The notes under the pieces are model-generated. The model did not search any database. It was given only the letters and a program-made list of their open reading frames with translations, and was not told the DNA's origin. A stretch of DNA of 64,000 nt from Geodermatophilus obscurus DSM 43160 (GTDB lineage: Bacteria; Actinomycetota; Actinomycetes; Mycobacteriales; Geodermatophilaceae): the NCBI RefSeq assembly GCF_000025345.1, contig NC_013757.1, forward strand, positions 1,178,001 through 1,242,000, given 5' to 3'. Made by a program: the position numbers and the translations under genes. Below, one piece after another: positions 12,348 to 52,231 of this stretch. Numbering within the stretch: the stretch's first letter is position 1; each line of letters begins with the position of its first letter.

Positions 12348-12430
12348 TTCCTGCCTCTCGCGGTCCAGCAGTCGCTCCCGCGGCGCTGCACCGCCGCAGG
12401 AGCGCGGGGGACACCGCAGGAGACAGCGGA

Positions 12431-33593: not shown

Positions 33594-34295
33594 GTGTCCG
33601 TCGTCGTCCTGATCAGGTTCGACGACGGGGGTGCCGTGCCGACCGCGACCAGTGCGCTGGAGGTCGTCGACGGCGAGGTGCGGGAGCTGATCCGCCGGCG
33701 CGGGTTGGACCCGTTCACCGATCCCGGGCCGGTGCGGCTGCTGGTGCGCGACGTGGTGGCCGACTACTCCGAGCGGTCGCTGACCTCGGCGCTGCCGCCG
33801 ATCGGCGACCCCGAGTCGGTGGTGCGTGACGTGCTGGACCGGGTGGCCGGGTTCGGTCCGCTGCAGCGGTGGCTGGACGACCCGGAGGTCGAGGAGATCT
33901 GGGTCAACGAGCCGGGCCGGGTGTTCGTCGCGCGGCGCGGCCGCTCGGAGCTGACGACGACGATCCTGGCGCCCGGTGAGCTGGCCGACCTGGTGGAGCG
34001 GATGCTGCGCACCTCGGGGCGGCGGATCGACATGTCGACGCCGTTCGTCGACGCGACGATGCCCGACGGGTCGCGGCTGCACGTGGTCATCCCGGACATC
34101 ACCCGCCGCCACATGGCGGTCAACATCCGCAAGTTCGTGCTGCAGGCGCACTCGCTGGACGAGCTGGTCGGGCTGGGCACGCTGACCCCGCAGGCGGCGC
34201 GGTTCCTCGAGGCCGCCGTCGTCTCCGGGCTCAACGTGCTGATCGCCGGCGGCACCCAGGCCGGCAAGACCACCCTCGTTGTCTGTTCACTGTGA
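33594..34295 (+). pseudogene. TadA/CpaF pilus ATPase, truncated at Walker A by an integrated element
   Basis: The N-terminal 228 or so residues of a TadA/CpaF type II/IV secretion ATPase: GFGPLQRWLDDPEVEEIWVN, MSTPFVDATMPDGSRLHVVI and VNIRKFVLQAHSLDELV. It runs up to the P-loop GGTQAGKTT at 34251-34274, then the frame diverges (LVVCSL, stop at 34295). The Walker B, secretion and His boxes are missing. The serine recombinase starts at 34308, so the gene was interrupted by integration at this point. GTG 33594 or GTG 33636 may be the start. The rest of tadA and any tadB/C genes must lie beyond this window. Confidence 0.85.
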
Positions 34296-34307: not shown

Positions 34308-35690
34308 GTGTCGAGCCGAGCGGCCATTTACTGCCGGATCTCTAGCGACCCTCGGGACACCGGCCTGGGAGTTGACCGTCAGCGACAGGAGTGCCGCGAC
34401 CTGGCGGTGGCTCGCGGTTGGGACATCGTCCGTGTCCACGTCGACAACGACGTGTCTGCCTTCTCAGGAAAGCGCCGGCCCGCATATGAGCGGTTGCTAG
34501 CGGACGTGAGCGCTGGGGCCGTGGACGTCGTCCTGGCCTGGCACCCTGACCGACTGCACCGGTCCCCGTTGGAGCTGGAGGAGTTCATCGTCGCGGTAGA
34601 GAAGGGCGGGGTCGGGGTTCAGACGGTCACGGCTGGCCAGTGGGACCTGAGCACCGCGACCGGGCGGTTCTTCGCCCGCCAGTTGGGCGGCGTCGCCCGA
34701 TACGAGAGCGAGCACCGAGGCGAGAGGCTGCGTGCGAAGTTGGACCAGAACGCGGCCCGTGGTGTGACCCACGGCCGAGCGACGTACGGCTGGCGCGCCG
34801 AGTACGCCCCTGACAAGACCCGCTGCGACGTCGTTCACGAGGAGGAGGCTGACGTTGTCCGGGGCATCGCCGGCCAGCTCCTCGCGGGGGAGTCTCTTCG
34901 GTCCATCACCGCGAACCTCAATGCCCGCGGCGTGCCGTCCCCGCGTGGCGGCCCCTGGCACAAGGGCATGGTCCGACACCTGGTCCTACGCGAGCGCAAC
35001 GCGGGCCTCCGCGTCCACCGCGGCCAGGTCGTCGGGCAAGGCACTTGGGAGCCGATTCTCGACCCGGGGACCTACGAGCAGGTGCGCGCCGTCCTGGGGG
35101 ACCCGGCTCGCAAGACGAGCACCGGGACCGCGGCCCAGCATCTCCTCTCGGGGATTGCCCGATGCGGCGTCTGCGGTACCCCCGTCCGGGTCGCATGGAA
35201 TCGCACCGTCCACTCCTACCGCTGCGCAGGCCGAAGCTGCGTCAGCCGACGGAAGGCCGACGTGGACGAGCTGGTGAGCCGGGTGGTCGTCGCTCGGCTG
35301 GCCCGACCGGACGCCGTCGATCTCTTCGCCCCCGACACGTCAGACGTTCGTCGAGCGGCGGCCGAGGAGGTGCAGGTGCTCCGTGCCCGCCTGGACAACG
35401 CCGCGGATGACTACGCGGACGGGAAGATTGACGCCCGACAGCTAGAGCGCATCACCGCTCGGCTTCGTCCTGCGGTGGCGACCGCGGAGGCGCGCGCCCG
35501 AGCGGTTGACGACGCGCCCCTACTGTCCGGCCTTCTCGGCGTGGCCGACGTAGAGACGGCGTGGAGCTCCCTGAGCCTGAGCCGACGGCGAGCCGTCGTT
35601 GAGGCGCTCATGGCCGTGACCATCCTGCCGACACGCCAGGGGGTGCGGACCTTCGATCCCTCCACGGTGCGGATTGAATGGAAGGCGTGA
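34308..35690 (+). CDS. Large serine recombinase (integrase)
   Basis: A 460-aa site-specific recombinase. The catalytic resolvase domain has AAIYCRISSDP with S12 as likely nucleophile, the DRQRQEC motif and GRFFARQLGGVARYES. The recombinase domain follows, then a zinc ribbon (CGVCGTP...CAGRSC, residues about 285-312) and a coiled-coil (about 350-385). It is shorter than phiC31-type integrases (about 600 aa) but complete in domains. It should catalyse attP x attB integration into tadA. Confidence 0.93.
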   Translation: MSSRAAIYCRISSDPRDTGLGVDRQRQECRDLAVARGWDIVRVHVDNDVSAFSGKRRPAYERLLADVSAGAVDVVLAWHPDRLHRSPLELEEFIVAVEKGGVGVQTVTAGQWDLSTATGRFFARQLGGVARYESEHRGERLRAKLDQNAARGVTHGRATYGWRAEYAPDKTRCDVVHEEEADVVRGIAGQLLAGESLRSITANLNARGVPSPRGGPWHKGMVRHLVLRERNAGLRVHRGQVVGQGTWEPILDPGTYEQVRAVLGDPARKTSTGTAAQHLLSGIARCGVCGTPVRVAWNRTVHSYRCAGRSCVSRRKADVDELVSRVVVARLARPDAVDLFAPDTSDVRRAAAEEVQVLRARLDNAADDYADGKIDARQLERITARLRPAVATAEARARAVDDAPLLSGLLGVADVETAWSSLSLSRRRAVVEALMAVTILPTRQGVRTFDPSTVRIEWKA

Positions 35691-37022: not shown

Positions 37023-37400
37023 GGCGGGCTTCACCGCCGTTCGCATCGACCCGTCCTGCGCGCGCCGCACAAGCCGCTGCTCCTGCTGTGGATGCTCGGA
37101 CGCGTCCAAGCCGGCCGCCCTGGTCCGGTCACCTTCGCCGAGCTGGAGGAGCCCGTCCGGGGGCTGCTGCGCGACTTCGGCTTACCGCCGGCCAGCTATC
37201 ACCTGAAGTTCCCGCTCCACCACCTGACCAGCGACGGGCTGTGGACCATCACCGACGCCGCCGACGCCACCGACGCCACCGGCGCCGACGCCGGCCCGCT
37301 GGACACCTCCGTGACCAAGCTGCGCCGCCGGAGCGATGGGCCAGCGGGAGCCGACCTTCGAGGACGCGCTGATCGCCGCCCGCACCGGCCTGGCGCCCGA
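37023..37400 (+). pseudogene. Remnant of SBD (phosphorothioate-binding) restriction endonuclease
   Basis: The open stretch reads RAPHKPLLLLWMLGRVQAG, then FAELEEPVRGLLRDFGLPP, SYHLKFPLHHLTSDGLW. This pattern matches the N-terminal sulfur-binding domain (SBD) of ScoMcrA-like, phosphorothioation-dependent HNH endonucleases. There is no proper start codon: a TAA lies at 37008 and the first in-frame ATG (37092) is already inside the domain. After about 37260 the sequence becomes a simple GACGCCACC repeat and loses the family pattern, and no HNH domain follows. About 180 bp of unassigned sequence precedes it. Confidence 0.6.
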
Positions 37401-37529
37401 CGCGAGGCCAAGCTCGCCGTCTTCGACTACCTCGAAACCTTCAACAACCCGCGTCGGTGCCACTCGGCTCTCGGCCAGATCGCCCCGACGACGTTCGAAG
37501 CACAGCACACTGCCACCACCGCGGCCTGA
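37401..37529 (+). mobile_element. IS3-family transposase remnant (OrfB C-terminus)
   Basis: The last 42 codons read EAKLAVFDYLETFNNPRRCH then SALGQIAPTTFE, the characteristic end of IS3-family OrfB transposases. It is fused in frame behind the restriction-enzyme remnant, so this is an insertion/deletion scar and not a functional element. Confidence 0.75.
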
Positions 37530-37769: not shown

Positions 37770-39905
37770 ATGGCCGAAGTTGCCGAAGTATGCTCTCCCG
37801 CCTCAACGGGATCCGACTGGCGGCCAGCAGGGCAGGTGGGACCGGTGGCTTCGAAGGACGCAGAACTGGAGATCGGCCTCCAATGGAGGCCTCATGACCA
37901 GCGATTCAACGCCAGCCTCGCCTTCGACGGGCCGGCTGACCAAGAGCCACGGCGCCAGCTGGTGGACCAGCCGGTGTACGTGGACCTGCCGCGTCTCAGG
38001 CAACTGACTGCGAACGCCGAGCAGTACGGCACTGCGCTCACCGAAATGCTATTCGCCGTCGAGGAGATCGGGGACTTCTACCGGCTGGCTCGCACCGCCG
38101 CAGGAGCTGACGACACTCCCATCCACCTCCGGCTGCTGGTCGACCCCAGCGCGCCCAACGACTATCACCGGGTGCGATGGGAGCTGCTGCGGGACCCGGA
38201 GGACGGTGCGCCCGTTGCCACCCGGCGCAACGTCATGTTCTCCCGCTACCTGAGCAGCTCCGACTGGACGCTGAGCACATCGCCGCCCAAACATGACCTG
38301 CGTGCCCTCGTGGTGATCGCCAACCCCAGCAACCTAGCGGACTACACTCCGCGGGGCCGGTCCCTCGCCCCGGTAAACGTGCTGGCCGAGCGTCAGAGCG
38401 CCGTCATCGCGCTCGGGCCGAGTATTTCTGTCACGGTGCTCGACTCCGGCGGCGCGGCGACCCTTGACCGCATTACCGACGCCCTGGCCGACGGGATCGA
38501 CCTGCTGTATCTGGTCTGCCATGGCACCCTCGCCGACGGCGACACGCGGCTGTGGCTCGAGGCTCCCGACGGCACGGCGGCGGTGGTCGACGGCCAGCAG
38601 TTGGTGGACCGGCTCAACGGGCTCACCCGCCGGCCCACGCTGGCCGTCCTCTGCTCGTGCCAGTCCGCCGGCACCGAGCCCGCCACCGAGGACGGCGGTG
38701 TGTTCGCCGCCCTTGGCCCCCGGCTGGCCGCTTCCGGTGTGCCAGCCGTGGTAGCCATGCAAGGCAACGTCACGATGACGACGGCGGCTAGCTTCTTCCC
38801 GGCGTTCTTCGAGGAGCTGGCCGCGCACGGCGTCGTGGACCGGGCCATGGCCGTCGCCCGCAGCCGGATCGAGGGCCGGCAAGACTGGTGGGCACCGGTC
38901 CTCTTCTCCCGTCTTAAGCGGGGCCGCACCTGGTATCTACCGGGGTTCGCCGAGGCCGGCAGCTATCTTTGGAACGCCGTGATAAGCGCCGTTGAGAGCC
39001 GCACCTTTACGCCGATCCTCGGCCCCGGCCTGGCCGCGCAGATTATCGGCTCCAGGCGGGAGATCGCCCGCCGGTGGGTGGACCGCTGGATGATGCCTAT
39101 CGCCCCGGCCAACCGCGAGGACCTGCCGAAGGTCGCCCAGTACCTGCGCACTCGCACTGCGGAGCAGGTGCCGGCCAACGACCTGCGCAATTACCTAATG
39201 ACAGACTTTCGGCAGCGGTACGCCGACCGGGTGCCCGAGGCGCTGCTGCAGGGCTCGCAGCCGGAGAAGGTTATCGCCGAGCTGGGCGCGCAGACCCGGC
39301 GGACCGACCTCGACGACCCCTATGTCCGCGTCGCTGCGCTGCCCGCGCCCATCTACGTGACCACCACCTGGAACTCTCTGCTGGAGGACGCCCTCGTCGA
39401 CGCCGGCCGCCCCCCCGTCGTCGGTAGCTTCGACTGGAATGACGCTCCGGTCTCCGACCTTTCTGAGGAGCTGCACGAGAAACCCACCGTGGAGCGGCCG
39501 CTGGTCTATCACCTGTTCGGCCGGATCGAGGAGCCCGAGTCTCTGGTGCTCACCGAGGACGACCACTTCGCCTGGCTGATGGCCTGGATCGACCGGCGGC
39601 AGAACCTGCCGGCGAGCGTGCGTCATGCCCTCACTCGGAAGTCACTAATGTTCCTCGGCTACCGCCTCGACGACCTCGACTTTCGTGTGCTCTTCCAGAG
39701 CCTGCAGAGCTTCGGCGGGTCGGGACAGCTTCGGCGGTGGCAGCACATCGGCGTCCAGCTCAGCCCGGCAAGCCCGATGATTGAGCCGGAGGCTGCCCAG
39801 GAATACCTCGAGTCCTACTTCGGAGAGCGCAAGGTCGGCATCTACTGGGGGGAAACCCGCCGGTTCCTGCAGGAGCTCGGCCAGCGCATGCAGGTGCCCC
39901 AGTGA
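37770..39905 (+). CDS. CHAT protease-SIR2-like fusion protein
   Basis: A 711-aa two-domain protein. The CHAT (caspase-fold) domain spans about residues 115-390 with the dyad H251 (YLVCHGTL) and C297 (CSCQSAG). The C-terminal part (about 400-705) follows the SIR2_2-like pattern (TPILGPGL, YVTTTWNSLLEDAL, ESLVLTEDDHFAWL, LMFLGYRLDDLDFRVLF). In that part the catalytic Asn of TTNYD is replaced (TTTWN, 531-535) and the LHG histidine reads LFG, so NAD+ cleavage is doubtful. It overlaps a truncated STAND gene by 4 bp. The start (ATG 37770) has a weak ribosome-binding site; GTG 37848 is an alternative. Confidence 0.85.
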   Translation: MAEVAEVCSPASTGSDWRPAGQVGPVASKDAELEIGLQWRPHDQRFNASLAFDGPADQEPRRQLVDQPVYVDLPRLRQLTANAEQYGTALTEMLFAVEEIGDFYRLARTAAGADDTPIHLRLLVDPSAPNDYHRVRWELLRDPEDGAPVATRRNVMFSRYLSSSDWTLSTSPPKHDLRALVVIANPSNLADYTPRGRSLAPVNVLAERQSAVIALGPSISVTVLDSGGAATLDRITDALADGIDLLYLVCHGTLADGDTRLWLEAPDGTAAVVDGQQLVDRLNGLTRRPTLAVLCSCQSAGTEPATEDGGVFAALGPRLAASGVPAVVAMQGNVTMTTAASFFPAFFEELAAHGVVDRAMAVARSRIEGRQDWWAPVLFSRLKRGRTWYLPGFAEAGSYLWNAVISAVESRTFTPILGPGLAAQIIGSRREIARRWVDRWMMPIAPANREDLPKVAQYLRTRTAEQVPANDLRNYLMTDFRQRYADRVPEALLQGSQPEKVIAELGAQTRRTDLDDPYVRVAALPAPIYVTTTWNSLLEDALVDAGRPPVVGSFDWNDAPVSDLSEELHEKPTVERPLVYHLFGRIEEPESLVLTEDDHFAWLMAWIDRRQNLPASVRHALTRKSLMFLGYRLDDLDFRVLFQSLQSFGGSGQLRRWQHIGVQLSPASPMIEPEAAQEYLESYFGERKVGIYWGETRRFLQELGQRMQVPQ

Positions 39906-40045
39906 CCGCCCTCCGGGGGCTGTGGACCCGCCGCCCCGGGCTGTCCAACCCCTACGTCGGCCCTCGCGCCTTCGGCTCCGACGACCGTCTGTACGGCCGT
40001 GACCGCGAGACCCGTGAGCTGTTCGACCTGCTGATCGCCGAGCGC
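39902..40045 (+). pseudogene. Truncated STAND ATPase (N-terminal 48 codons)
   Basis: GTG 39902 overlaps the CHAT-SIR2 stop (GTGA). The product begins like the intact STAND protein at 44308: NPYVGPRAFGSDDRLYGRDR, ELFDLLIAERIV. Similarity ends exactly before the P-loop, where the intact gene continues LIYSPSGAGKTS. The frame then runs through unrelated sequence into the next gene. A deletion has removed the ATPase core and everything after it. Confidence 0.8.
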
Positions 40046-40136
40046 ATTGTTTGCTGTACGCGCCATCCGGCGCTGCCCACCCCGGTCGAGCAGCACTTCC
40101 TTGCCAAGTCGAAGGAAGTGTGGGTGGGGGGAGAAA

Positions 40137-40253
40137 TGGCGGCAGGCCACACAGGTCGTAGTCCGCCTCGCGGTCATCGCCGGCGTCCTCCTGCTAGCCC
40201 TGATTGTCTGCATCGTCTTGCTGACCCGCCGCGTCGGAAGGAAACGGCCATGA
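40137..40253 (+). pseudogene. C-terminal remnant of a small membrane protein
   Basis: In the frame ending at 40253 the residues WRQATQVVVRLAVIAGVLLL and following ALIVCIVLLTRRVGRKRP form one TM helix with a basic tail. Its stop overlaps the ATG of the C25-like protease gene (ATGA). Probably a membrane partner gene of that protease, cut at its 5' end by the same deletion that removed the STAND gene. Confidence 0.45.
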
Positions 40254-41725
40254 CTCATGACAGCCCCCTCGCCGCGCACGACGAGAACCCGGCCACCACA
40301 GACAGCGAGCTGGTGTTCAATGGCGTGGACGGCACCACCGGTGGCTACTTGTTCCCGCCCACCCCCGCAGCCTCACTGGCGGCTCTTGTGCGTGGGGAGC
40401 AGCTCGCCGGGGACGCCGTCGACGAGCTGCAGTCGCGCAGCGCGGCGGACGAGGCCGACTTCGGCATCGCCTTCGGCCACGACCCCGAGGACCTGGCGCA
40501 GTCCGGTTGGGGGCTGGTTGCGCCGGTTGGCCTGGCGCCCGACGTGCTGGAGGCGCTCACCCCGCTGCGCGAACTCCGCCGAAGGCAGGCAGGAGACCTT
40601 TACCGGGAGTTCCTCGGCGATTACGGAGTTCAGCCGGGGGAGGGCAAGCAGCAGTGGTTGGCCCGCCACGGGATGGGACCCAGCCCTGCCAACCCCGCGA
40701 AGGTGCCGTACTACCTGCTCCTGGTCGGTGATCCGGAGGCCATCCCGTACCGCTTCCAATACCAGCTCGACGTCCAGTACGCGGTCGGGCGAGTCGCCTT
40801 CAACACCGCCGAAGAGTACGACAACTACGCCCGGACGGTCGTGCAGCGCGAGTCCACCATGGCTAGTGGGCCGCGCAGCGTCGCGCTGTTCGGCCCCCAA
40901 AACCTGGCAGACCGGTCCACTAATCTTAGCCGCCGCCTGCTCGTCGAGCCCCTGGCCGAAGAGCTGATCGCCGCGCGTGAGCGTTTTCCGAAGCTGGCCG
41001 ATCTGCGGGTCGGGTCGGCTGTGGCCGACAAGGCCACCAAGGCCCAGCTGCTCGACCTCCTCACTAGCGATAGTGCCCCCGAGGTGCTGTTCACCGCCGG
41101 CCACGGTGTCGGTTTCCCCGCCCAGGACACCCGGCAGCGGGAAGCGCAGGGCGCACTGATTTGCCAGGAGTGGCCGGGTCCCCTGCTGTCGGCCGGCGCC
41201 ATGACCGACGACTATTACCTCTCTGCTGCTGACATCGACCTGACGACGTTGGTACGCCCTGCCGTCGTCTTCAGCTTCGCCTGCTTCGGCGGCGGCACCC
41301 CGGTGGAGAATGACTTCGCACACCAGGGCACGGGACCGGCGGCCATGGCGGCGCGCCCGTTCGTGGCCCGCCTGCCGCAGCGGCTGCTCGGCTCACCAGC
41401 CGGCGGTGCACTCGCCTTCCTCGGGCACGTCGAGCGCGCCTGGGGCTGCTCATTCACCTGGCCAGGAGCGGGTGCGCAGCGCGTGGTCTTCCACAGCGCC
41501 CTCCTCGCCGTGCTCAGCGGCTGGCGGGTGGGACACGCGATGGAGTTCTTCGACGAGCGGTACGCCGAGCTGTCGGCCGACCTAAACGAGACGCTCGAAG
41601 GAGTCCGCAAGGACGGCCGCAATGTGCCCGACAGCGAACTGGCCGGCGCCTGGACGGCCAACAACGATGCCCGCAGCTACGTCGTGGTCGGCGACCCGGC
41701 CGCGCGCCTGCCGGTCGCGCCTTGA
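40250..41725 (+). CDS. Caspase-fold cysteine protease, C25 (gingipain)-like
   Basis: A 491-aa protein. Features typical of the C25/caspase clan are YYLLLVGDPEAIPYRFQYQL, YAVGRVAF, the catalytic His285 in LFTAGHGVGFP and Cys345 in FSFACFGGGTP. A late SYVVVGDPAARLP is where C25-like proteins end. No signal peptide is present, so it acts in the cytoplasm, unlike secreted gingipains. The ATG at 40250 has GGAAGGAAA upstream. It precedes the alpha/beta hydrolase gene by 34 bp in the same direction. Confidence 0.78.
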   Translation: MTHDSPLAAHDENPATTDSELVFNGVDGTTGGYLFPPTPAASLAALVRGEQLAGDAVDELQSRSAADEADFGIAFGHDPEDLAQSGWGLVAPVGLAPDVLEALTPLRELRRRQAGDLYREFLGDYGVQPGEGKQQWLARHGMGPSPANPAKVPYYLLLVGDPEAIPYRFQYQLDVQYAVGRVAFNTAEEYDNYARTVVQRESTMASGPRSVALFGPQNLADRSTNLSRRLLVEPLAEELIAARERFPKLADLRVGSAVADKATKAQLLDLLTSDSAPEVLFTAGHGVGFPAQDTRQREAQGALICQEWPGPLLSAGAMTDDYYLSAADIDLTTLVRPAVVFSFACFGGGTPVENDFAHQGTGPAAMAARPFVARLPQRLLGSPAGGALAFLGHVERAWGCSFTWPGAGAQRVVFHSALLAVLSGWRVGHAMEFFDERYAELSADLNETLEGVRKDGRNVPDSELAGAWTANNDARSYVVVGDPAARLPVAP

Positions 41726-41759
41726 TCCGCCCACCGACTGCCCGAGCGGAGGCAGCGCC

Positions 41760-43109
41760 ATGCCGCGAGAGATAGTCCCCGGCACCGACTTCGACTACTT
41801 CCTCGTCGCCTTCGACGCCGAGGGGCGGGAACGACGAGAGGACGGCCGGTTGCTCACCGAGCAAGTGCTGAAGGAGGTCGAGCGGCGGAGGGCCACCGAC
41901 GTGGTCCTGCTCAGCCACGGGTGGAACGGCGACGTCCCTGCGGTCCGACACCAGTACGCGCGCTGGCTGACCACCATGCTGGGCTGCGAGGCCGACCAGG
42001 CTGCGATGCGTGACCTCGTCCCCGATTACCGGCCGCTCGTAATCGGACTGCACTGGCCCAGCAGGGCGTGGGGTGACGAGGGGCTCGACGGGTCCGGCTC
42101 CTTCACCGCCGCGTCACGGGGGGACGACGAGCCACCCGCTGCGCCGGTGACAGTCGGCGACGTCGTTGAGCGCTACCTCGACCGGCTGGCCGAGAGCGAG
42201 GTCGCCCGCGCGGCACTGCGGACAATTGTAACCGCGGCACTCGAAGACATCTCCCCGCCGACGCTGCCGCCAGAGGTGCGCGAGGCATACCAGGTGCTGG
42301 ACGCCGAGGTTGGGCTGGCCGCGGAGGGGGAGGGGGCCGACCCCGCCGCCGACCGTGTGCCGTTCGACGCCGAACAGGCATATCAGGCGGCACGTTCGGA
42401 GGAAGAGGATTTTGAGTTCGGCCGGGCTGCGCTGGGGGGCGTCCTTGCGCCACTGCGAATGCTCACGTTCTGGCAGATGAAGCGTCGAGCCCGCGACTTC
42501 GGTAGGACCGGCGCGCATGACCTCCTCCGCGCGCTGCAGAAACTGGATTTCGACGGTCGGCGCCTGCGGCTGCACCTCATGGGGCACAGCTTTGGCTGCA
42601 TCGTGACATCCGCCGCCGTCACCGGCCCGCCAGGCGGCCAGCCCGTGCGGCCGGTGGACTCTCTGGTGTTGGTGCAGGGCGCGCTGTCACTATGGTCGTA
42701 TTGCTCAAGTATCCCGCATCGACCTGACCGACGGGGCTACTTCTCCCGGCTGGTGGCAGATGAGCTTGTGGCTGGTCCGGTGGTGGTCACCACCTCGGAG
42801 CGAGACCGAGCGGTGGGTTCCTTCTACCCGATCGGCGCCGGGCTACGCCGCCAGATCGACTTCGGAACTGAGCTTCCCGAGTACGGGGGGCTAGGCAGCT
42901 TTGGGATGCGGGGTCCCGGTCCGCGCATCGAGGACCTCCCGATGGCGGACGCCGCCGATGACTACCGGTTCCGGAGCGGCACGGTCTACAACCTTGAGAG
43001 CAGCCACGTCATCCGGGAAGGCGGGGGCGCGTCAGGCGCGCACAGCGACATCAACCGCCCGGAGGTCGCCCACGCGGTGTGGCAGGCGATGGCCTGCACA
43101 GCCCGCTGA
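41760..43109 (+). CDS. Alpha/beta hydrolase of the conflict locus
   Basis: A 449-aa serine hydrolase. An early strand and oxyanion region (DVVLLSHGWNGD, residues 47-58) and nucleophile elbow LMGHSFGC (S277) are clear. A long helical insertion lies at about 105-250. The acid and final histidine may be in TTSERDRAVG and HSDINRPEVAHAVW (the sequence around S-D-I-N-R-P-E-V-A-H). Lipase, esterase or peptidase activity cannot be separated. The gene end runs directly into the 5'-truncated SIR2-like gene. Confidence 0.78.
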   Translation: MPREIVPGTDFDYFLVAFDAEGRERREDGRLLTEQVLKEVERRRATDVVLLSHGWNGDVPAVRHQYARWLTTMLGCEADQAAMRDLVPDYRPLVIGLHWPSRAWGDEGLDGSGSFTAASRGDDEPPAAPVTVGDVVERYLDRLAESEVARAALRTIVTAALEDISPPTLPPEVREAYQVLDAEVGLAAEGEGADPAADRVPFDAEQAYQAARSEEEDFEFGRAALGGVLAPLRMLTFWQMKRRARDFGRTGAHDLLRALQKLDFDGRRLRLHLMGHSFGCIVTSAAVTGPPGGQPVRPVDSLVLVQGALSLWSYCSSIPHRPDRRGYFSRLVADELVAGPVVVTTSERDRAVGSFYPIGAGLRRQIDFGTELPEYGGLGSFGMRGPGPRIEDLPMADAADDYRFRSGTVYNLESSHVIREGGGASGAHSDINRPEVAHAVWQAMACTAR

Positions 43110-44311
43110 CGACGGCGAGGGGCGTGCCCGCCGTGGTGACGATGCAGGGGAACATCACCATGACCACCGCCGCAGTATTAACCCAGGCCTTCTTCCAGAG
43201 CCCAGTCAAGCACGGGCTTGTGAACCGAGTGACCGTGGTCGTCCGGGCGGCCGTGCAGAACCGGCCGGACTGGTCGGTGCCCGCGCTGTTCATGCGGCTG
43301 AGGAGCGGACGGCTGTGGTACCGGCCCGGAACCGCTCCCGGCGGGGAGCGGTTCGACAAGTGGCCGTCGCTGGTCATCGACCTGCAGGTCGGAATGTGCA
43401 CCCCGGTGGTCGGGGTCGGCATCACCGAGGCGCTGCTGGGCACCCGCCAGGACATCGCCACGGATTGGGCCCAGAGCTACCGCTACCCCATGGCACCGCA
43501 CAACCGGGACAGCCTGCCCCAGGTGGCCCAGTACCTGTCGGTCAACCAGAACCGGCGCTTCCCCTGCCTGAAGTACATGAGCCATCTGCGCCGTACACTC
43601 GTGGAGCGGTACCGCGAGGACCTGCCCGCGGACCTGCTCGACGAGGACGCCTCCCTCGAGGACCTCCTCGCCGCGGCCTGGGAGGCGCAGCACCGGCGCG
43701 AGGAGGTCGAACCCTTCTCGGTGCTGGCCCAGCTGCCGGCGCCGGTCTACATCACCACCCTGAATTCCCGCCTGCTGGCCAACGCCCCGCGCGACGCCAG
43801 CCGCAGACCGGAGGTGGAGCTCTGCCGCTGGCACGAGGACGCCGACTGGCCCGAGTCGGTCTTCGATCGCGAACTGGACTACCGGCCCACCCCCGAGCGT
43901 CCGCTGATCTACCACCTGCTGGGGACCTTCGACGAGCCCGAGTCCCTGGTGCTGACCGAGGATGACCACTTCAACTTCCTCATCGGCGTCACCCGCAACC
44001 AGGACCTCGTGCCGGCGGTGGTGCGCTGGCGGCTGTCGGACTCTGCGCAAATGTTCCTGAGGTCTCGCCTGGATGAGTGGGACTTCCGCGTCCTGTACCG
44101 CAGCCTGATGAACTCCGAGGGGGGACGGCGGCGAGCCCAGTACACGCATGTGGCCGTTCAGCTCGATCCCGAGGAGGGGGCCACGGTCGACGCGGGGCGT
44201 GCCTGGAGGTGCCTGAAGACCTACTTCAGCAATGCGCGCGTGTCCCTGTACTGGGGCAGCACGGAGCACTTCGCCAAGGATCCGCAGGACGCCTGGGGTG
44301 CCCGGCGATGA
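43079..44311 (+). CDS. SIR2-like protein, 5'-truncated relative of the CHAT-SIR2 gene
   Basis: Residues from GVPAVVTMQGNITMTTAA onward align with the CHAT-SIR2 protein at its residue 323 onward, but the CHAT His and Cys are missing. The SIR2-like part is complete (TPVVGVGITEALLGTRQDIA, APVYITTLNSRLL, ESLVLTEDDHFNFL, RLDEWDFRVLYRSL). The catalytic Asn and His positions read L and L, so NADase activity is doubtful here too. The frame can start at GTG 43079 or 43124, within or just after the hydrolase gene end. It overlaps the STAND gene in ATGA. Possibly still expressed as a shortened protein. Confidence 0.7.
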   Translation: MAGDGLHSPLTTARGVPAVVTMQGNITMTTAAVLTQAFFQSPVKHGLVNRVTVVVRAAVQNRPDWSVPALFMRLRSGRLWYRPGTAPGGERFDKWPSLVIDLQVGMCTPVVGVGITEALLGTRQDIATDWAQSYRYPMAPHNRDSLPQVAQYLSVNQNRRFPCLKYMSHLRRTLVERYREDLPADLLDEDASLEDLLAAAWEAQHRREEVEPFSVLAQLPAPVYITTLNSRLLANAPRDASRRPEVELCRWHEDADWPESVFDRELDYRPTPERPLIYHLLGTFDEPESLVLTEDDHFNFLIGVTRNQDLVPAVVRWRLSDSAQMFLRSRLDEWDFRVLYRSLMNSEGGRRRAQYTHVAVQLDPEEGATVDAGRAWRCLKTYFSNARVSLYWGSTEHFAKDPQDAWGARR

Positions 44312-47300
44312 CCGCCACCGACACGCCCTCGCGGGTCGGCAACCCCTACGTCGGCCCGACCTCCTTCCGTCTTGGCGACGCTCTCTATGGACGGGACCGC
44401 GAGCGCGAGGAACTGGTCGACCTGCTCGAAGCTGAACGGATCGTCCTGATTTACTCGCCCTCCGGCGCCGGGAAGACGTCGCTGATCGAGGCCGCCCTGG
44501 TTCCGGCCCTGCGGGACGACGGATTCGAGGTGCTGCCGGTCATCCGGGTCACCCACCCGCTGGAATCCCGGCCCGGAGCTCCCACGCCCCGCAACCGCTA
44601 CGTGATGAGCGCACTGCTGTCCCTCGAGGAAGGCCTGCCGCCGGAGCGACAACGACCGGTCGCAGAGCTGGCGACCCTGACGCTGCGCGAGTACCTGGCG
44701 GTCCGCGCCGACCGGGACGGCCGTCCAGGCAACGAGGTGTTCATCTTCGACCAGTTCGAGGAGGTGCTCACCGCCGACCCCACCGACGAGCCGGCCAAGC
44801 ACGCGTTCTTCAAGGAGCTCGGCCAGACGCTGCGCGACCAGGACTACTGGGCGCTGTTCTTGATGCGGGAGGACTTCCTCGCCGCCCTGGACCCCTACCT
44901 GCGGCATGTCCCAACGCGGCTGCGGACGAGGTTCCGGCTGGACCTGCTCTCCGCGGACCAGGCACTCGAGGCGATCCGCCGACCGGCGGAGCGGGCCGGC
45001 GTCGACTTCACCGAGGAGGCCGCCCGGCAGCTGGTCGACGACCTGCGCACCGTGCGGGTGCAGCGGCCGGACGGGGTCACCGAGGTGCTCGGCTCCTACG
45101 TCGAGCCGGTCCAGCTGCAGGTCACCTGCCACCTGCTGTGGTCGATGCTGCCACCTGGTGCCTCGGAGATCACCCGTGCCGACGTCGAGGCCCTGGGGCG
45201 GGTGGACCAGGCGCTGGCCGGCTACTACGCCGAGCGGGTCCGCGCGGCCGCGGAGCGCACCGGGGTACCCGAGCGAGCCATCCGGGAGTGGTTCGAGGAG
45301 CGGCTCATCACCCCGCAGGGGCTGCGCAGCCAGGTGCTCGAGGGACCCGCGCCCTCCGGGGAGGGCGGGTACCGCCTGCTGGGCGAGCTGCTCGACGCCC
45401 ACCTCGTCCGCGCGGAGACCCGCCGGCAGGCCACCTGGTACGAGCTGGCCCACGACCGGCTGATCGAACCCGTCCAACGGGACAACGCCGCCTGGCTCGC
45501 CCAGCACCTGTCCCCCGTGGAGCGGGCGGCCACGCTGTGGGAGCAAGAGTGCAGGCCGGACCGCCTGCTGCTGCTCGGCGCTGACCTCGCCGCCGCGGAG
45601 GAGGACGACGCAGTCCGGGCCGGCAAGCTCACGCACCGGCAGCGAGAGTTTCTCGAGGCGTCGCGGCGAGCAGCGGAGCGGAGCGCCCGCCGCCGCCTGC
45701 GTCGCGCGAGCTTGATTGCGGCAACCATGGCCCTGCTCCTGATCTCTGCCTTGGTGCTCGGCGTCATCGCCTGGAGGAACGCCGCAAATGCCCGGGCGGC
45801 GTCCGCTTTGGCCTCGGCGCGGGAGCTGGCAGCCGGTGCGGACCGGCTGGTCAGCACGCGCCCGGACCTGGCCATCCTGCTGGGCCTGCAGAGCCTAAGT
45901 CTCGCGGGCGACCAGGACCGGTCCCCTCCCGCCGGACTGATAACCGCACTCTCCCAGCTCACCCACCGCACTGCGTGGGTGTCCGACGGCCACGACGGGG
46001 CGGTGTTCGGCGTGGCGTTCAGCCCGGACGGTGCTGTGCTGGCCGGCGCCGGCGCCGACGGAACGGTGCGGCTGTGGGATGCCGCCACCGGCCGAGCGCG
46101 CGGCGCGCCGCTGACCGGCCACACCGACGCGGTGACCGCGGTGGCGTTCAGCCCGGACGGTGCTGTGCTGGCCAGCGCTGGCGCCGACGGGACGGTGCGG
46201 CTGTGGGACCCCGCCACCGGTCGGCCGCGCGGCGCGCCGCTAGCCGGCCACACCGACGCCGTCAACGCCGTGGCGTTCAACCCGGACGGGACCCTGCTCG
46301 TCAGCGCTGGAACCGACCGGACGATCCGGTTGTGGGACACAGCGACCGGCCGAGGGCGCGGCGAGCTGGCCGGTGTGGCCGGCCACGCTGGTGCGGTCAA
46401 CGCGGTGGCGTTCAGCCCCGACGGGTCTCTGCTGGCCAGCGCCGGCGCCGACGGGACGGTGCGGCTGTGGGACCCCGCCACCGGGGGACCGCACGGCGCG
46501 CCGCTGGCCGGTCAAGCGGGTCACGTCGGCGCGGTGAACGCCGTGGCGTTCAGCCCCGCCCCCGACGGCTCCCTGCTGGCCACCGCCGGCGCCGACCGGA
46601 CGGTGCGGCTGTGGAATCCGGCCACCGGCCAGCCGCGCGGTGTGCCGCTGGAAGGTCACGTCGGCGCGGTGAACGGCGTGGCGTTCAGCCCCGACGGCAC
46701 CCTGCTGGCCACCGCCGGCGCCGACGCGACGGTGCGGCTGTGGAATCCGGCCACCGGCCGGCCGCGCGGCGGTCCGCTGGCCGGCCACGACGGCGCGGTG
46801 ACCGCCGTAGCGTTCAGCCCCGACGGGGCCTCATTGGGCAGCGCCGGCACCGACCAAACGGCGCGAATCTGGGAGGTCGCCGACACCTATTCCGTCAGCC
46901 GGCGGCTGGCCGGTGACCCCGGCCTGGTCTACGAGGTGGCATTCAGCCCGGACGGCGCGCTGCTAAGCACCGCCGGTCGCAACGGGAGGGTGCGGCTGTG
47001 GGATCCCGTCACGGGTGAGCCGCGGGGCGCGCCGCTGTTCGGCCACAGCGGCGCGGTGAACGGCGTGGCGTTCAGCCCCGACGGCACCCTGCTGGCCAGC
47101 GCCAGCGTCGACGAGATGGCGTTGTTGTGGGACCCCGCCACCGGCCGGCCGCAGGGTGCGCTGCTGACCACCCACGGCGGCCCGGTGAACGCCGTGGCGT
47201 TCAGCCCCGATGGCACGCCGCTAGCCACCGCGAGTGAGGACGGAACGGTGCAGTTGTGGGATGCCGCCACGGGCGAGCCGCAGGGTGCGCCGCTGACCGG

Positions 47301-47961
47301 GCACACCGACGCGGTGAACGGCGTGGCGTTCAGCCCCGACGGCACCCTGCTGGCCAGCGCCGGCTCCGACCGGACGGTGCGGCTGTGGAATCCGGCCACC
47401 GGCCGGCCCCACCGCGAGCCGCTGGGCGGTCACGTCGGCGCGGTGAACGGCGTGGCGTTCAGCCCCGACGGCACGCTGCTGGCGACCGCCGGCGCCGACG
47501 GAACGGTGCGGCTGTGGAATCCGGCCACCGGCCGGCCCCACCGCGAGCCGCTGACCGGCCACACCGACGCGGTGAACGCGGTGGCGTTCAGCCCCGACGG
47601 GACCCTGCTGGTCAGCGCCGGCGCCGACGGAACGACGTTGTTGTGGGACCCTGCCACCGGCCAGCCGTACGGCGAGCCGCTCGAAGGTAACAGCGGCGTG
47701 GTCTGGAGTGCGGCGTTCAGCCTCGACGGGCGCCTACTGGCCACCACCACCGATAAGACGTTGCAGCTGTGGGACCTGAGCTGGTGGGAGGAGCCGCCCT
47801 CTGCCTGGGCTGAGGCCGGCTGCAGGCTGGTCAACCGCAACTTGTCCGCAGACGAATGGAACCAGTTCGCCGGGGATCTGCCGTACCAGCGGACCTGCCC
47901 GGGACTACCTTCCGGGGAGCGTGCACCGAGCAATGCCATCGCAGCCGACTACTCACCGTGA
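44308..47961 (+). CDS. STAND ATPase with 14 WD40 repeats
   Basis: A 1217-aa sensor-type ATPase (nSTAND1-like). The N-terminus NPYVGPTSFRLGDALYGRDR precedes the P-loop PSGAGKTS (51-58) and Walker B VFIFDQFEE (144-152). A helical arm ends at WYELAHDRLIEPVQ. One hydrophobic helix (about 468-488, ASLIAATMALLLISALVLGV) may anchor it to the membrane. Fourteen WD40 units (561-1158) would form two seven-bladed propellers, and a short tail follows. STAND proteins oligomerise on ligand binding. ATGA coupling to the SIR2-like gene suggests it controls the proteases and SIR2-like proteins. Confidence 0.92.
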   Translation: MTATDTPSRVGNPYVGPTSFRLGDALYGRDREREELVDLLEAERIVLIYSPSGAGKTSLIEAALVPALRDDGFEVLPVIRVTHPLESRPGAPTPRNRYVMSALLSLEEGLPPERQRPVAELATLTLREYLAVRADRDGRPGNEVFIFDQFEEVLTADPTDEPAKHAFFKELGQTLRDQDYWALFLMREDFLAALDPYLRHVPTRLRTRFRLDLLSADQALEAIRRPAERAGVDFTEEAARQLVDDLRTVRVQRPDGVTEVLGSYVEPVQLQVTCHLLWSMLPPGASEITRADVEALGRVDQALAGYYAERVRAAAERTGVPERAIREWFEERLITPQGLRSQVLEGPAPSGEGGYRLLGELLDAHLVRAETRRQATWYELAHDRLIEPVQRDNAAWLAQHLSPVERAATLWEQECRPDRLLLLGADLAAAEEDDAVRAGKLTHRQREFLEASRRAAERSARRRLRRASLIAATMALLLISALVLGVIAWRNAANARAASALASARELAAGADRLVSTRPDLAILLGLQSLSLAGDQDRSPPAGLITALSQLTHRTAWVSDGHDGAVFGVAFSPDGAVLAGAGADGTVRLWDAATGRARGAPLTGHTDAVTAVAFSPDGAVLASAGADGTVRLWDPATGRPRGAPLAGHTDAVNAVAFNPDGTLLVSAGTDRTIRLWDTATGRGRGELAGVAGHAGAVNAVAFSPDGSLLASAGADGTVRLWDPATGGPHGAPLAGQAGHVGAVNAVAFSPAPDGSLLATAGADRTVRLWNPATGQPRGVPLEGHVGAVNGVAFSPDGTLLATAGADATVRLWNPATGRPRGGPLAGHDGAVTAVAFSPDGASLGSAGTDQTARIWEVADTYSVSRRLAGDPGLVYEVAFSPDGALLSTAGRNGRVRLWDPVTGEPRGAPLFGHSGAVNGVAFSPDGTLLASASVDEMALLWDPATGRPQGALLTTHGGPVNAVAFSPDGTPLATASEDGTVQLWDAATGEPQGAPLTGHTDAVNGVAFSPDGTLLASAGSDRTVRLWNPATGRPHREPLGGHVGAVNGVAFSPDGTLLATAGADGTVRLWNPATGRPHREPLTGHTDAVNAVAFSPDGTLLVSAGADGTTLLWDPATGQPYGEPLEGNSGVVWSAAFSLDGRLLATTTDKTLQLWDLSWWEEPPSAWAEAGCRLVNRNLSADEWNQFAGDLPYQRTCPGLPSGERAPSNAIAADYSP
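45988..47781 (+). repeat. Tandem WD40-encoding DNA repeats (14 units)
   Basis: Units of roughly 120-135 bp, each with the motif GVAFSPDGTLLA...ADGTVRLWNPATG. Neighbouring units share long identical stretches at DNA level (for example around GGCGTGGCGTTCAGCCCCGA), which is far more alike than needed for the fold. Units 7 and 8 are the most divergent and may mark the border of the two propellers. Confidence 0.9.
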
Positions 47962-48548: not shown

Positions 48549-49454
48549 TCATGGACGTGAGGCTAAGAACATCAGCACGCCGTTGGCAATCCCCTGCGCG
48601 GCTCGTTGACGCCAGTCCGGGTCGGTAACAACTGTTCCATCCTCGTGGTTGCGCATGTTTCCGCACTCGATAAAGATTGCCGGAACGCGTGCTAGGTTAA
48701 GTCCGGCGAGATCGTTACGTCGAGTGAGTCCGGGCTGCACAAGCTCTCCCGGGTAGGTGGCCATTGGTTCAGCAGTCGCCGCGCTGAAGGCCGTCAGCAT
48801 GTGGAACGCTGCTTGCTCCGAAGGCTCCAAGATGCCGGCGTTGCCACCATCAGGTGCCAAAGCAGGTTTGATCACATGGAAGCCCCGAACGTCCGGGTCG
48901 GCGCCGTCCGCATGGATGGAAACCGCCAAAGCGGCGCCGGCCTCGTTGGCTGCGTCGGCGCGCTCGTTCACGCAGGGGCCCACTCCCGAGTCATCGGTGC
49001 GGGTCAGGGCCACGGTCACGCCCTTGGCGCGGAGCAGGTCCGCTGCCCGATGCGCCACATCGAACGCGAACGCGTGCTCGGGGTATCCGGCGCTCGTCTG
49101 TGCACCAACGGTGTTGCACGGCTTGGTGAAGCCACCTGCCGGGACGGGCCGGCTAATATCAGCCGGAGCAGCAGCATTGCCGCCATTGTGCCCCGGATCC
49201 AGAACGACGACAGCAGGCAGCCCGGCTGAGAGCGGGGCCGCGAACGGAGGTGAGGAGACCTGCGACGTAGTTTGTGTCGTCGTCCCGGTCGAGGCACTCG
49301 ACGCACTTGTCGGGATTGTGCAGGCGGTAGCCGAGCCAATCACGCTCAGCGCCACTGCGAAGGCGGCGCCTCTCACAGCTGACAAGGCTGTGGCCGACCT
49401 CCGGTGACCCCGAGGTGCGCAGCCGCGGCAGTGGCCCGGTCGTTCGGTCACCAT
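48549..49454 (-). CDS. N-acetylmuramoyl-L-alanine amidase (Amidase_3)
   Basis: A 301-aa exported amidase. A hydrophobic export segment (AAFAVALSVIGSATAC) ends in a possible lipobox cysteine, followed by a Ser/Thr-rich linker. The Amidase_3 domain has VLDPGHNGG, YPEHAFAFDVA, VALTRTDDSG, VSIHADGAD and the catalytic glutamate in IFIECGNMRN. It cleaves the amide bond between N-acetylmuramic acid and the peptide stem. A host-like secreted enzyme rather than a phage endolysin is suggested by the lipoprotein-type signal. A 20-codon frame overlaps its start. Confidence 0.85.
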   Translation of the reverse strand: MVTERPGHCRGCAPRGHRRSATALSAVRGAAFAVALSVIGSATACTIPTSASSASTGTTTQTTSQVSSPPFAAPLSAGLPAVVVLDPGHNGGNAAAPADISRPVPAGGFTKPCNTVGAQTSAGYPEHAFAFDVAHRAADLLRAKGVTVALTRTDDSGVGPCVNERADAANEAGAALAVSIHADGADPDVRGFHVIKPALAPDGGNAGILEPSEQAAFHMLTAFSAATAEPMATYPGELVQPGLTRRNDLAGLNLARVPAIFIECGNMRNHEDGTVVTDPDWRQRAAQGIANGVLMFLASRP

Positions 49455-49836: not shown

Positions 49837-50682
49837 TCAGCCAGCGATGAGGACGTCGCTGATCGCCGTCTTGTCGAAGCGTGCGTCGCCAGGCTCGGTG
49901 ACCGCATCAATCCGAAGCTGCACGATCCTGGCCTGCACCGGCGGGATGCTGATCGTCTGAAGACAACGAGCCCCGTCCACCAGCGGTTGATGATGAACGA
50001 GTCCACCCACGGACCAGGAGACGTTCACAATTCTGCGCTCCTGACTATAGCGATCCTCGCCTGTCGCTGGGTCGATCTTCGCATACCCGTTGACCAACCC
50101 CAGCTGCGCGATGGGACGCCGCTCGTCGAGGCCGAAAGTCAGGACGGCGCCCGTCCCGTCGCCGTCCATGCGCCATGCCGTCGCGGGATCCCCGTCGAGC
50201 ATGTTGGCCGGGACATACGAGGTCCGGTTCCCTGCCCCGTCGACGCCGCCCACGGATGTCGACGGGGCCCGCGCCTCGGACACGGAGTTCCAGGACCGAG
50301 GGGCCAGATCGGTCGACGGGTCGGCATCGATGACGTCCGGCGTCGAGGCGCTGGGACGCGATGGGACCGCCGTGTCGGGTCCGGGATCGTGAGAGCTGGG
50401 ACTCGAAATCGGTGTCGAAGATGCGACAGGGCCGTGGTCGCGGTTTGGGACGAGCACGAGTATGGCGGCAGCTCCGATGGCAACCAGACCAGCGACCGGT
50501 AGTGCGACGGCCACCCACCGCGATCTCCCGGCAGGTCGGCGACCCCAGCGGCCCACGTCGGACCACCTGCGGCCCTCGCCTCTGGCGGTGAGGGATCGAC
50601 TGCACTTCTGACAGAACCTGTCTCCGGGCGCAATTGGCTCGCCACAAAGGGTACACCGATCTACCTCAGTCGGTTCGCTCAT
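49837..50682 (-). CDS. Zinc-ribbon, TM and discoidin-like domain protein
   Basis: About 281 aa. It starts with a cytoplasmic zinc ribbon (CTLCGEPIAPGDRFCQKC), then a basic stretch and one TM helix (VAVALPVAGLVAIGAAAILV, about residues 56-75). A Ser/Pro linker leads to a C-terminal beta-sandwich resembling discoidin/NADase-type glycan-binding modules (PANMLDGDPATAWRMDGDG, LGLVNGYAKIDP). It probably binds a surface ligand. ATG 50682 has GAGGGG upstream and lies inside the frameshifted end of the preceding gene. Confidence 0.75.
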   Translation of the reverse strand: MSEPTEVDRCTLCGEPIAPGDRFCQKCSRSLTARGEGRRWSDVGRWGRRPAGRSRWVAVALPVAGLVAIGAAAILVLVPNRDHGPVASSTPISSPSSHDPGPDTAVPSRPSASTPDVIDADPSTDLAPRSWNSVSEARAPSTSVGGVDGAGNRTSYVPANMLDGDPATAWRMDGDGTGAVLTFGLDERRPIAQLGLVNGYAKIDPATGEDRYSQERRIVNVSWSVGGLVHHQPLVDGARCLQTISIPPVQARIVQLRIDAVTEPGDARFDKTAISDVLIAG

Positions 50683-50733
50683 CGACCCCTCCTCGTCCGT
50701 CGGCCCGCGCCTGCAGGGCGACAAGCCGCGCGG

Positions 50734-51340: not shown

Positions 51341-52231
51341 GCATCACTGCGTCCGAACCCTGGAGGTGGAGCCGGGACTGCCCCGGTTCGGTTGACTCCT
51401 TGCCTGTGAGCCACGGCCTCACTGGAAGGGTCAGCATCGAGCCCAAGCCGTTCCCGGCGGAGTTCCTTCGTGACGTCATCGCCGTAGCCCTTAAAGTAAG
51501 GGGCAGCGGTTGAGCCCCCGATACGCCGTTGCCCTCGGCTCTGCGTCCGACTACGGCCCTTTCCCGGCTCGGTCAGCAATCATGCGGTCATCGTTACGCC
51601 TGCTGCTTGGCCGATGATGAACCAGGCACGTCATGCTCGCCGTCGTCCTGGGCGCGTCAGGGATGTACCAAATCAGCCCGCGGCGGGAGACCGGACTTGG
51701 CCGGTCAAGCCGGGCGTCAAACTAGGGCATGGGCGAGCGGCGGGCTCGATGAGGTGAGCCTGTCGGCCGGGCGGTAGAGCCTTGCGAGGCCGACCGTGGA
51801 GGAGCCGAGAGCCGTTGCAGCGCGTCACGCATGTCGGTCTGTGTACTTGTCGCTGATCGACTGGCCGGCATGTATGGGGCCGAGGGACTGAAGTGCCGAA
51901 GGCCATGGACCGCGTATCAGCCGCCAGGCCCGCGTGGGCTACAAGGGGCTGCCAGACAGCGTCCCGGGAGGTGTCAGGCCAGAGCGGCCGGTCAGCGATG
52001 TCTTGCCTATTTCGCCCCGCCGATACGTCGCGCGATTTGTTCAGGTCGTGCGCCTATTTCAGCGCCGAGGCTCTTCAGCAACTGGCGGGGGTGGTAGGCG
52101 ATGAGTGCTGCCGGAGACAACGAGGCTCCACTTGGGCCCGGCGAGATGAGGGTCTGCGGCCGGATGGGCTGCTTGTGTGAACGGCGGCGCTGGGTATCGC
52201 CTACGGCCAGTGATGGGTGTACGTCTGGTGC
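51341..52231. other. Gene-poor region between IS110 remnant and TIR gene
   Basis: About 890 bp with no convincing gene on either strand. The first part (51341 to about 51750) is upstream of the IS110 transposase frame and may be its left end, where IS110 elements encode their guide (bridge) RNA. It also holds one copy of a 50-bp sequence found again after the TIR gene. The rest (51750-52231) may contain the TIR gene promoter. Confidence 0.4.
51369..51418. repeat. 50-bp direct repeat, left copy (IS-end-like)
   Basis: GGGACTGCCCCGGTTCGGTT and the following GACTCC...CTGTG...CGGCC match 55225-55275 in the same orientation with a few changes. The sequence resembles an insertion-sequence end. The two copies bracket the TIR-NB-ARC gene. 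Confidence 0.6.

Follow-up and report, generated by a model that had tools for sequence, protein, structure and literature searches.

A co-directional run of genes in the actinobacterium Geodermatophilus obscurus DSM 43160 brings together two caspase-fold proteases, a hydrolase and a STAND ATPase. We tentatively read it, as something close to an even call, as a rearranged copy of a widespread bacterial conflict or cell-death cassette built around a protease cascade. The locus occupies positions 37770-47961 of a 64,000-nucleotide stretch (the window, G000:C1:1178001-1242000) of a 5.32 Mb genome assembled as a single contig. Its described genes all lie on the + strand, at the positions given by an earlier sequence-only reading (the original prediction), which took the run for a single candidate conflict system. 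Four open reading frames are identified by Pfam or fold: CHAT-SIR2a, a C25 protease, an alpha/beta-hydrolase and an nSTAND1-WD40 ATPase. The combination of STAND ATPase, caspase-fold proteases and hydrolase fits the known logic of such systems as laid out in the available part of one survey (PMC7159879), but the locus is not one intact system: it is a rearranged pair of units, each missing one gene.

Gene content of the locus

The first protease is a CHAT enzyme fused to a SIR2 domain that has lost its catalytic residues. CHAT-SIR2a (37770-39905, +) matches PF12770 (E 3e-30, 106.1 bits against a cut-off of 24), and the H251/C297 dyad named in the original prediction is intact and invariant in 22 of 22 aligned sequences. 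The SIR2 part matches SIR2_2 (PF13289, E 5e-21), and the best PDB sequence matches of CHAT-SIR2 are SIR2 proteins, ThsA and KomC among them. Such matches would suit an NADase effector of the ThsA/KomBC type whose output is NAD+ depletion, a reading we regard as very improbable. The position of the catalytic His, which we take to be H152 of ThsA, holds F in 19, L in 2 and M in 1 of the 22 CHAT-SIR2 proteins, and the Asn (presumably ThsA N112) is kept in 11 of them; the window protein has T at the Asn position and F at the His position. Because of these losses the SIR2 domain, still recognisable, is very unlikely to act as a ThsA-like NADase. We rejected that role on the missing His.

The second protease belongs to the gingipain fold. 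In the C25 protein (40250-41725, +, 491 residues), the predicted model clearly shows the gingipain catalytic fold, and H285/C345 is invariant in 30 of 30 aligned sequences. The C25-like assignment therefore holds in fold and active site, but its PF01364 score (E 1.3e-4, 21.8 bits) falls below the gathering cut-off of 23, which relatives in L025 (31.6 bits) and G288 (23.8 bits) exceed. By Kyte-Doolittle hydropathy, the only measure used, the N-terminus has no hydrophobic stretch. A C25 profile searched against PDB sequences returned one chance match (E 0.045).

The gene that follows encodes a GHSFG-bearing hydrolase (41760-43109, +), whose start is most likely at 41760 rather than 41622. Foldseek E-values for its predicted model are weak (best 0.022), so we based the fold call on a second look together with the putative triad S277-D349-H428, whose Ser, Asp and His are conserved in 18 of 18 aligned sequences. 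On both grounds the model appears to have the alpha/beta-hydrolase fold originally proposed.

The ATPase of 1217 residues (44308-47961, +) carries an nSTAND1 domain (PF20703, E 1.2e-34, 121 bits against a cut-off of 27.1) with a GAGKTS P-loop and a FIFDQFEE Walker B motif, and Pfam matches WD40 repeats within it, in agreement with the original prediction. A predicted transmembrane (TM) helix separates ATPase and WD40 parts (residues 469-487, 45712-45768, +; Kyte-Doolittle mean 2.73). It follows an Arg-rich stretch: K/R residues number seven among the 15 positions ahead of the helix and two among the 15 behind it. A similar helix (mean at least 1.9) is present in 33 of 45 nSTAND hits in the related loci described below, and the positive side faces the NTPase in 30 of these 33. 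The positive-inside rule holds that positively charged flanks stay on the cytoplasmic side of a membrane. By that rule the WD40 part would face outward, and it probably lies beyond the membrane helix, a topology read from hydropathy and K/R counts only; the original prediction had no such helix. WD40 repeats were Pfam-checked in the window and in L037, and assigned in G288 and G292 by likeness to the window's protein. The nSTAND part matched no PDB sequence.

NCBIfam returned nothing at E 0.01 for CHAT-SIR2, C25, the hydrolase or the nSTAND part, and only sub-cut-off matches for their relatives. PADLOC gave weak partial matches to CHAT-SIR2, none to C25 or the hydrolase, and one strong match (HEAT-ARM_XIII, E 6e-58) confined to the WD40 repeats of the STAND protein. 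Some family members already bear the NCBI names 'C25 family cysteine peptidase' or 'CHAT domain-containing protein'.

A mosaic of two incomplete units

Self-comparison of the window revealed two copies of the CHAT-SIR2/nSTAND pair: unit a no longer has an intact ATPase, and unit b no longer has its CHAT protease. In copy a, the intact CHAT-SIR2a gene runs through a GTGA overlap into an nSTAND1 remnant (39902-40253, +), detected by blastn with 44340-44468 and by blastx to TM-tailed nSTANDs. About 50 N-terminal residues of an nSTAND survive in the remnant (NPYVGPRAF...; 78% identity over 36 residues to a Nocardioides protein, L050). A frame-shifted LLYAPSGA follows, where the P-loop begins, and after it, in a different frame, a hydrophobic tail whose stop codon shares an ATGA with the start of C25. 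The junction overlaps described in the original prediction are thus present, but the GTGA at 39902 belongs to this overlooked remnant. Its N-terminus resembles the TM-tailed nSTANDs of L050, L067, L084 and L143 (blastx E 1.7e-15 to 4e-8), proteins of 478-532 residues with a hydrophobic helix at the C-terminal end. The tail is weakly similar to theirs (E 0.04 or worse), so we assigned it by hydrophobicity, position and the ATGA overlap. The loss probably amounts to roughly 370-400 codons. An intact order of CHAT-SIR2, nSTAND-TM, C25 and hydrolase is seen in Kitasatospora (L067).

Copy b is broken at the other gene. CHAT-SIR2b (43079-44311, +) lacks about its first 320 residues, both dyad residues included; its frame begins inside the end of the hydrolase gene, and it has no PF12770 match at E 0.01. 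Self-comparison and alignment to a congener (G292) identify it: it is 76% identical to the full-length CHAT-SIR2 there, and the following ATPase, STAND-b, is 79% identical to its G292 counterpart over the NTPase part. We therefore rejected an independent SIR2 gene at 43079-44311, previously taken for a separate SIR2-like protein, in favour of a truncated and apparently decaying CHAT-SIR2 copy.

Conserved positions separate the stumps from the remaining genes. Judged against 23 other sequences (the 22 aligned plus G284), CHAT-SIR2b differs at 5 of 28 invariant positions, the most of 24 proteins; for L031 and L050 the figure is 4 of 32. The sign of decay is accordingly the contrast with near relatives rather than the bare count: G292, G284 and L098 depart at 0 of 28, as does CHAT-SIR2a. 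At the 90% conservation level CHAT-SIR2b departs at 11 of 60 positions, second of 24 after L035 (12 of 65), and its near relatives at 1-2 of 61-62. STAND-b keeps all 39 invariant nSTAND positions (22 sequences). Near-invariant departures number 6 of 117 for C25 (relatives 0-13) and 6 of 104 for the hydrolase (relatives 0-15).

These breaks raise the prospect that the locus is dead in its source genome, a collapsed tandem of two cassettes on its way to loss. The nSTAND-a remnant and the truncated CHAT-SIR2b with its five departures speak for this, as do an integrase-core fragment just upstream (37092-37529, directly 5' of CHAT-SIR2a; PF13333, 22.8 bits against a cut-off of 22) and a TPR fragment near the far end of the surrounding element; CHAT-SIR2a, C25, the hydrolase and STAND-b remain open with their conserved residues kept. 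We take it as a serious possibility, if one that we doubt rather more than we credit. We slightly favour a still-working hybrid, in which CHAT-SIR2a, C25, hydrolase and STAND-b would complement one another, because these four genes keep their conserved residues and the two stumps do not. The window copy is damaged or hybrid in any event, and the Kitasatospora locus L067 or a Nostoc locus is better suited for study.

Recurrence of the gene set

The gene set recurs in distant phyla. A profile of three C25 proteins scanned over a genome-contig collection found 231 relatives, of which we analysed the best 80 loci, ranked by likeness to those three proteins and with several loci from one genome. 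Going by record titles, they lie in Chloroflexota (36), cyanobacteria (24), Acidobacteriota (8), Proteobacteria in the broad sense (5) and Actinobacteria (4), with one each in Myxococcota, Planctomycetota and Latescibacterota. Neighbours were scored with profiles for CHAT, nSTAND, SIR2, the hydrolase and two proteins described below, c3 and c5, partly built from the same loci as were counted; matches under 60 bits (CHAT, nSTAND, c3), 100 (SIR2) or 200 (hydrolase) counted as absent. Among the 80 loci, CHAT occurs in 45, nSTAND1 in 39, both in 34 and either in 50; SIR2 occurs in 19, the hydrolase in 25 and c3 in 30. Many contigs are short, so counts of absence are lower bounds. Where at least 9 kb flanks C25 on each side (31 loci), CHAT is present in 22, nSTAND1 in 21, both in 20, either in 23, the hydrolase in 13 and c3 in 10.

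Chance adjacency does not explain these frequencies. Well-flanked loci carry CHAT in 9 of 11 cyanobacterial and 13 of 20 other cases, against density expectations of 9-15% and about 1%, respectively, taken from 12 hand-chosen genomes, mostly known cassette holders, from which density alone was used. We rejected chance on this excess, and the cross-phylum recurrence bears out the original claim that the co-directional run is well beyond chance. Gene order differs between lineages: cyanobacteria have hydrolase - C25 - CHAT::nSTAND1-WD40, with CHAT fused to nSTAND1; several Chloroflexota have CHAT-SIR2 - nSTAND - C25 - c3 - c5; and C25 - CHAT-SIR2 - nSTAND is found in L050, L083, L088 and G288.

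Closer to home, C25, hydrolase, CHAT-SIR2 and nSTAND occur together in Cellulomonas fimi SB (L098), in Kitasatospora (L067, with a short, TM-tailed nSTAND) and in the congener G292. The original prediction turned on whether these genes are found together in other genomes, and they are, here and in other phyla. C25, CHAT-SIR2 and nSTAND also co-occur without the hydrolase in Nocardioides (L050), Actinokineospora (L084) and G288. Among 397 genomes of the order, C25 matched in 7 (3 close), the hydrolase family in 34, and CHAT-SIR2 with both domains in 6, a count that leaves out G348, G012 and G036, where one domain matched. CHAT-SIR2 is present in all 3 close-C25 genomes (P 1.9e-6; 1.3e-4 without the index genome).

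Related arrangements extend beyond this set. Four distant C25-like genes (G120, G042, G257, G395; 25-31% identity) sit in an operon of hydrolase, unknown gene, CHAT-like gene and C25-like gene, the CHAT being Pfam-confirmed in G120 only. These operons (L136:1297-6762, L137:10311-15768, L138:9185-14704 and L139 about 6900-12394, the last with its C25-like frame called only in part) encode an unknown protein of ~463 residues, a CHAT-like protein of ~447 and a C25-like protein of ~476, with no STAND gene, and are possibly a separate system. In G048 (L140:6138-11419), a SEFIR-NNH1-NACHT-CHAT protein of 1305 residues is followed by a hydrolase of the same family, and no C25 profile match falls within the 20 kb analysed. 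At L143:8703-19052, a lipase-like gene of 580 codons, CHAT-SIR2 and a TM-tailed nSTAND lie near a phage-sheath-like gene (Pfam) and a tube-like gene, the latter judged from its sequence start; the two are perhaps part of a contractile injection system.

Possible alternative partners of the C25 protease

The hydrolase looks like one of two alternative partners of the same protease. An extension of at least 100 residues follows the core in 40 of 77 C25 genes with a clear core, and the window protein lacks the ~110-residue C-terminal domain of many relatives. Profile comparison finds the extension's domain also as a stand-alone protein of ~112 residues, c5, and in the middle of c3, a protein of ~270 residues with a moderately hydrophobic tail. 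Scores among the three were 75.9, 47.6 and 45.9. The 40 control comparisons with column-shuffled c5 (covering c5 with c3 and c5 with the extension, not c3 with the extension) gave no more than 18.9, and 10 with unrelated profiles no more than 18.3. Examples of c3 and c5 have no Pfam match at E up to 1 and no NCBIfam match above cut-off.

Hydrolase and extension rarely coincide. An extension of at least 100 residues is present in 1 of 23 C25 genes with a hydrolase in the locus and in 38 of 52 without (Fisher P 1.6e-8; 75 of the 77 genes, two loci falling outside the table), and hydrolase and c3 occur together in 1 of the 80 loci. Phylogeny accounts for part of this pattern, 20 of the 25 hydrolase loci being cyanobacterial. 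In 8 of those 25 a further cluster, c6 (median 724 residues), is present, whose tested member is a lipoxygenase (PF00305, E 8.5e-59) and would fit a lipid output. All eight c6 loci are cyanobacterial, with one member tested; c6 lies just upstream of the hydrolase in L056, L057, L070 and L073 and nearby in L037, L043, L044 and L054. On plasmid pNSMS101, a peroxidase family gene lies upstream of the hydrolase-C25 pair.

Mobility and genomic setting

The locus lies on an integrative element that interrupts tadA/cpaF. The 5' half of this T2SSE ATPase gene (33594-34295, +; PF00437) is cut at or just after the P-loop, and its 3' half is matched about 60 kb on (G000:C1:1272465-1272863); the halves match the PF00437 profile at 4-161 and 156-273, and unbroken frames of 432-442 residues exist in G085, G198, G324 and G002. 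A serine recombinase adjoining the break (34308-35690, +; PF00239, PF07508, PF13408) is likely the element's integrase. Guanine-cytosine content drops from about 0.75 to about 0.69 across 34-44 kb, and a search for the exact att core brought out no repeat of the expected kind. In three congeners (G152:C12, G057:C17, G316:C13), tadA matches break off near residues 172-179 and continue ~20-27 kb further on, so that tadA looks like a repeated integration site in the genus. Downstream of the locus lie an Amidase_3 protein (48549-49454), which the Rv3717-type amidase model matches below its cut-off, a zinc-ribbon protein with an NADase-type glycan-binding domain (49837-50724, - strand), and a TIR-NTPase-TPR protein of the FxSxx-COOH type (52217-55195; NF040586, 698 bits), which the TPR fragment near the element's far end (L019:9820-10152) resembles.

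Mobility bears on what the cassette is for. Many of the cyanobacterial and Chloroflexota genera in the set are filamentous, and with 24 and 36 of the 80 loci in these phyla it may serve cell death during development or under stress, or surveillance of the envelope, in place of antiphage defence. The WD40 part predicted from hydropathy to face outward, the lipoxygenase-like neighbours and the one CHAT-SIR2-nSTAND locus beside a phage-sheath-like gene fit this idea, as does the outcome of a search of 50,697 phage records, in which C25 had no match at E 1e-5, leading us to reject a phage-borne C25. The distribution points the other way. A close C25 in 3 of 397 genomes, an integrative element and plasmid carriage (5 records, 3 of them matching most of the C25 protein, with the hydrolase adjoining in 2 of the 3) are what one expects of accessory conflict genes, and genes for a WYL protein and a PD-(D/E)XK nuclease adjoin one plasmid copy. 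We consider such a developmental or surveillance role unlikely.

A possible protease cascade

We propose that the conflict or cell-death cassette would act by relay. Two proteins would form its core. One is an nSTAND1 ATPase that a single helix would hold in the membrane; many copies continue past the helix with a long C-terminal part, identified as WD40 propellers in the cases checked. The other is a CHAT protease, joined to a dead SIR2 domain or, in the cyanobacterial version, to nSTAND1 itself. A stimulus acting on the WD40 part, perhaps infection, would drive nSTAND1 assembly at the membrane and so bring CHAT proteases together, activating them by proximity. CHAT could then activate the gingipain-fold C25 by cleavage, and C25 would activate or release a membrane-directed partner: the lipase-like hydrolase here or, in other lineages, the hydrophobic-tailed c3 that shares a domain with the C25 C-terminus. 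Membrane damage would end in growth arrest or death, the dead SIR2 probably serving as a scaffold or nucleotide-binding module. We infer these steps from the parts and from the logic of related systems as given in the available portions of two surveys (PMC7159879, PMC8195603).

A fuller version would make the cassette an inflammasome-like chain across the membrane: an outward WD40 receptor, nSTAND1 as the cytosolic switch, CHAT with its dead SIR2 scaffold as initiator, the gingipain-fold protease, from another clan-CD family, as executioner, and interchangeable membrane attackers, namely a phospholipase-like hydrolase, sometimes with lipoxygenase, or a hydrophobic-tailed protein recruited via the unnamed adaptor domain that it shares with the protease. 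The window hybrid would then work after reciprocal gene loss. We put this forward as an unlikely reading.

Several observations weigh against a single cascade cassette. Two genes of the window copy are broken; in 8 of the 31 well-flanked C25 loci both CHAT and nSTAND1 fall short of threshold; and the tails of c3 proteins reach only a moderate hydrophobicity (best 19-residue mean 1.36-2.10 across 23 proteins). Three of the six CHAT-SIR2 genomes of the order are without a close C25 (G284, its CHAT-SIR2 at a contig end; G017; and G171, an 85% complete draft whose match is two pieces with a stop codon). C25-hydrolase and CHAT-SIR2-nSTAND blocks are convergent in G292 and L098 and divergent in L068 and L069, so they do not always form one operon. 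C25-hydrolase and CHAT-SIR2-nSTAND-WD40 might instead be two independent modules that share islands with no cascade joining them. The separate strands in those four loci and in L054, L056 and L070 suit such a division, as do a CHAT-SIR2-nSTAND1 pair without a close C25 in G017 and the eight loci with C25 but neither CHAT nor nSTAND1. It sits poorly with the close same-strand orders of several phyla (cyanobacteria, Chloroflexota, L050, L083, L088, G288) and with the distant L136-L139 operons, in which hydrolase, CHAT-like and C25-like genes stay together; on balance we doubt it. The cascade cassette stays our tentative reading.

Relation to known systems

Each part is of a known kind; what appears new is how they are combined, together with the dead SIR2, the shared adaptor-like domain and the alternative outputs. 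One close precedent is the MoxR-vWA-VMAP ternary conflict systems, which pair caspases with alpha/beta-hydrolases (Kaur et al. 2020, PMC7159879). As described in the available part of that source, they are NTP-dependent and rich in multicellular bacteria, the caspase-fold protease is always neighboured by the hydrolase, and the hydrolase pairing is mutually exclusive with another peptidase pairing. The locus differs in its nSTAND1 ATPase, two different caspase-fold proteases and CHAT-SIR2. No MoxR, vWA or VMAP appeared among the Pfam-scanned open reading frames of the window, a subset of the neighbours, with genes of related loci outside the scan. A second survey, as far as available, links nSTAND1 NTPases to peptidases and sets out an effector-associated-domain principle, in which a small domain common to protease and partner acts as adaptor (Kaur et al. 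2021, PMC8195603). Here the shared domain has no Pfam match (E up to 1) or above-cut-off NCBIfam match, and the CHAT-C25-hydrolase set is absent from the portion available. Diversity-generating retroelement targets in the multicellular bacterium Thiohalocapsa include CHAT and nSTAND1 proteins of putative conflict systems, according to the part of the report at hand (PMC10907252).

Other comparisons set the cassette further apart. Gingipains (peptidase family C25) share 12-13% identity with the window protease, which differs in having no hydrophobic N-terminus by hydropathy and a STAND-linked gene set. Craspase TPR-CHAT and SAVED-CHAT systems differ in that no gRAMP or SAVED part was recognised among the scanned genes, CHAT here is fused to SIR2 or nSTAND1, and a second protease stands alongside. 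The Apaf-1/CED-4 apoptosome likewise has a STAND ATPase with a C-terminal WD40 sensor driving a caspase-fold chain (PMC7159879, as far as available), whereas the cassette has an nSTAND1-clade ATPase, a predicted helix between ATPase and WD40, CHAT and C25 in place of caspases, and an assembly that we only propose. The term C25 had 0 matches in PMC7159879, PMC8195603 and PMC10907252; CHAT, nSTAND and SIR2 had 0 in PMC7159879, and SIR2 and hydrolase 0 in PMC10907252. No CHAT-SIR2, C25 or four-gene set is described in the available parts of the three. A full-text literature search found no paper on the cassette, which is weak evidence of absence, as subscription journals and bioRxiv lie largely outside its coverage.

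The gene set resembles a bacterial alarm or self-destruct switch, and it recurs in distant bacteria. With different caspase-fold proteases in series behind a STAND sensor, the proposed chain is reminiscent of death signalling in animals. Two new parts, the shared unnamed domain and the CHAT-fused dead SIR2, are concrete enough to test, and a recurrent, membrane-anchored STAND set with two proteases and a swappable output would make the logic and origin of such cascades testable in a few genes.

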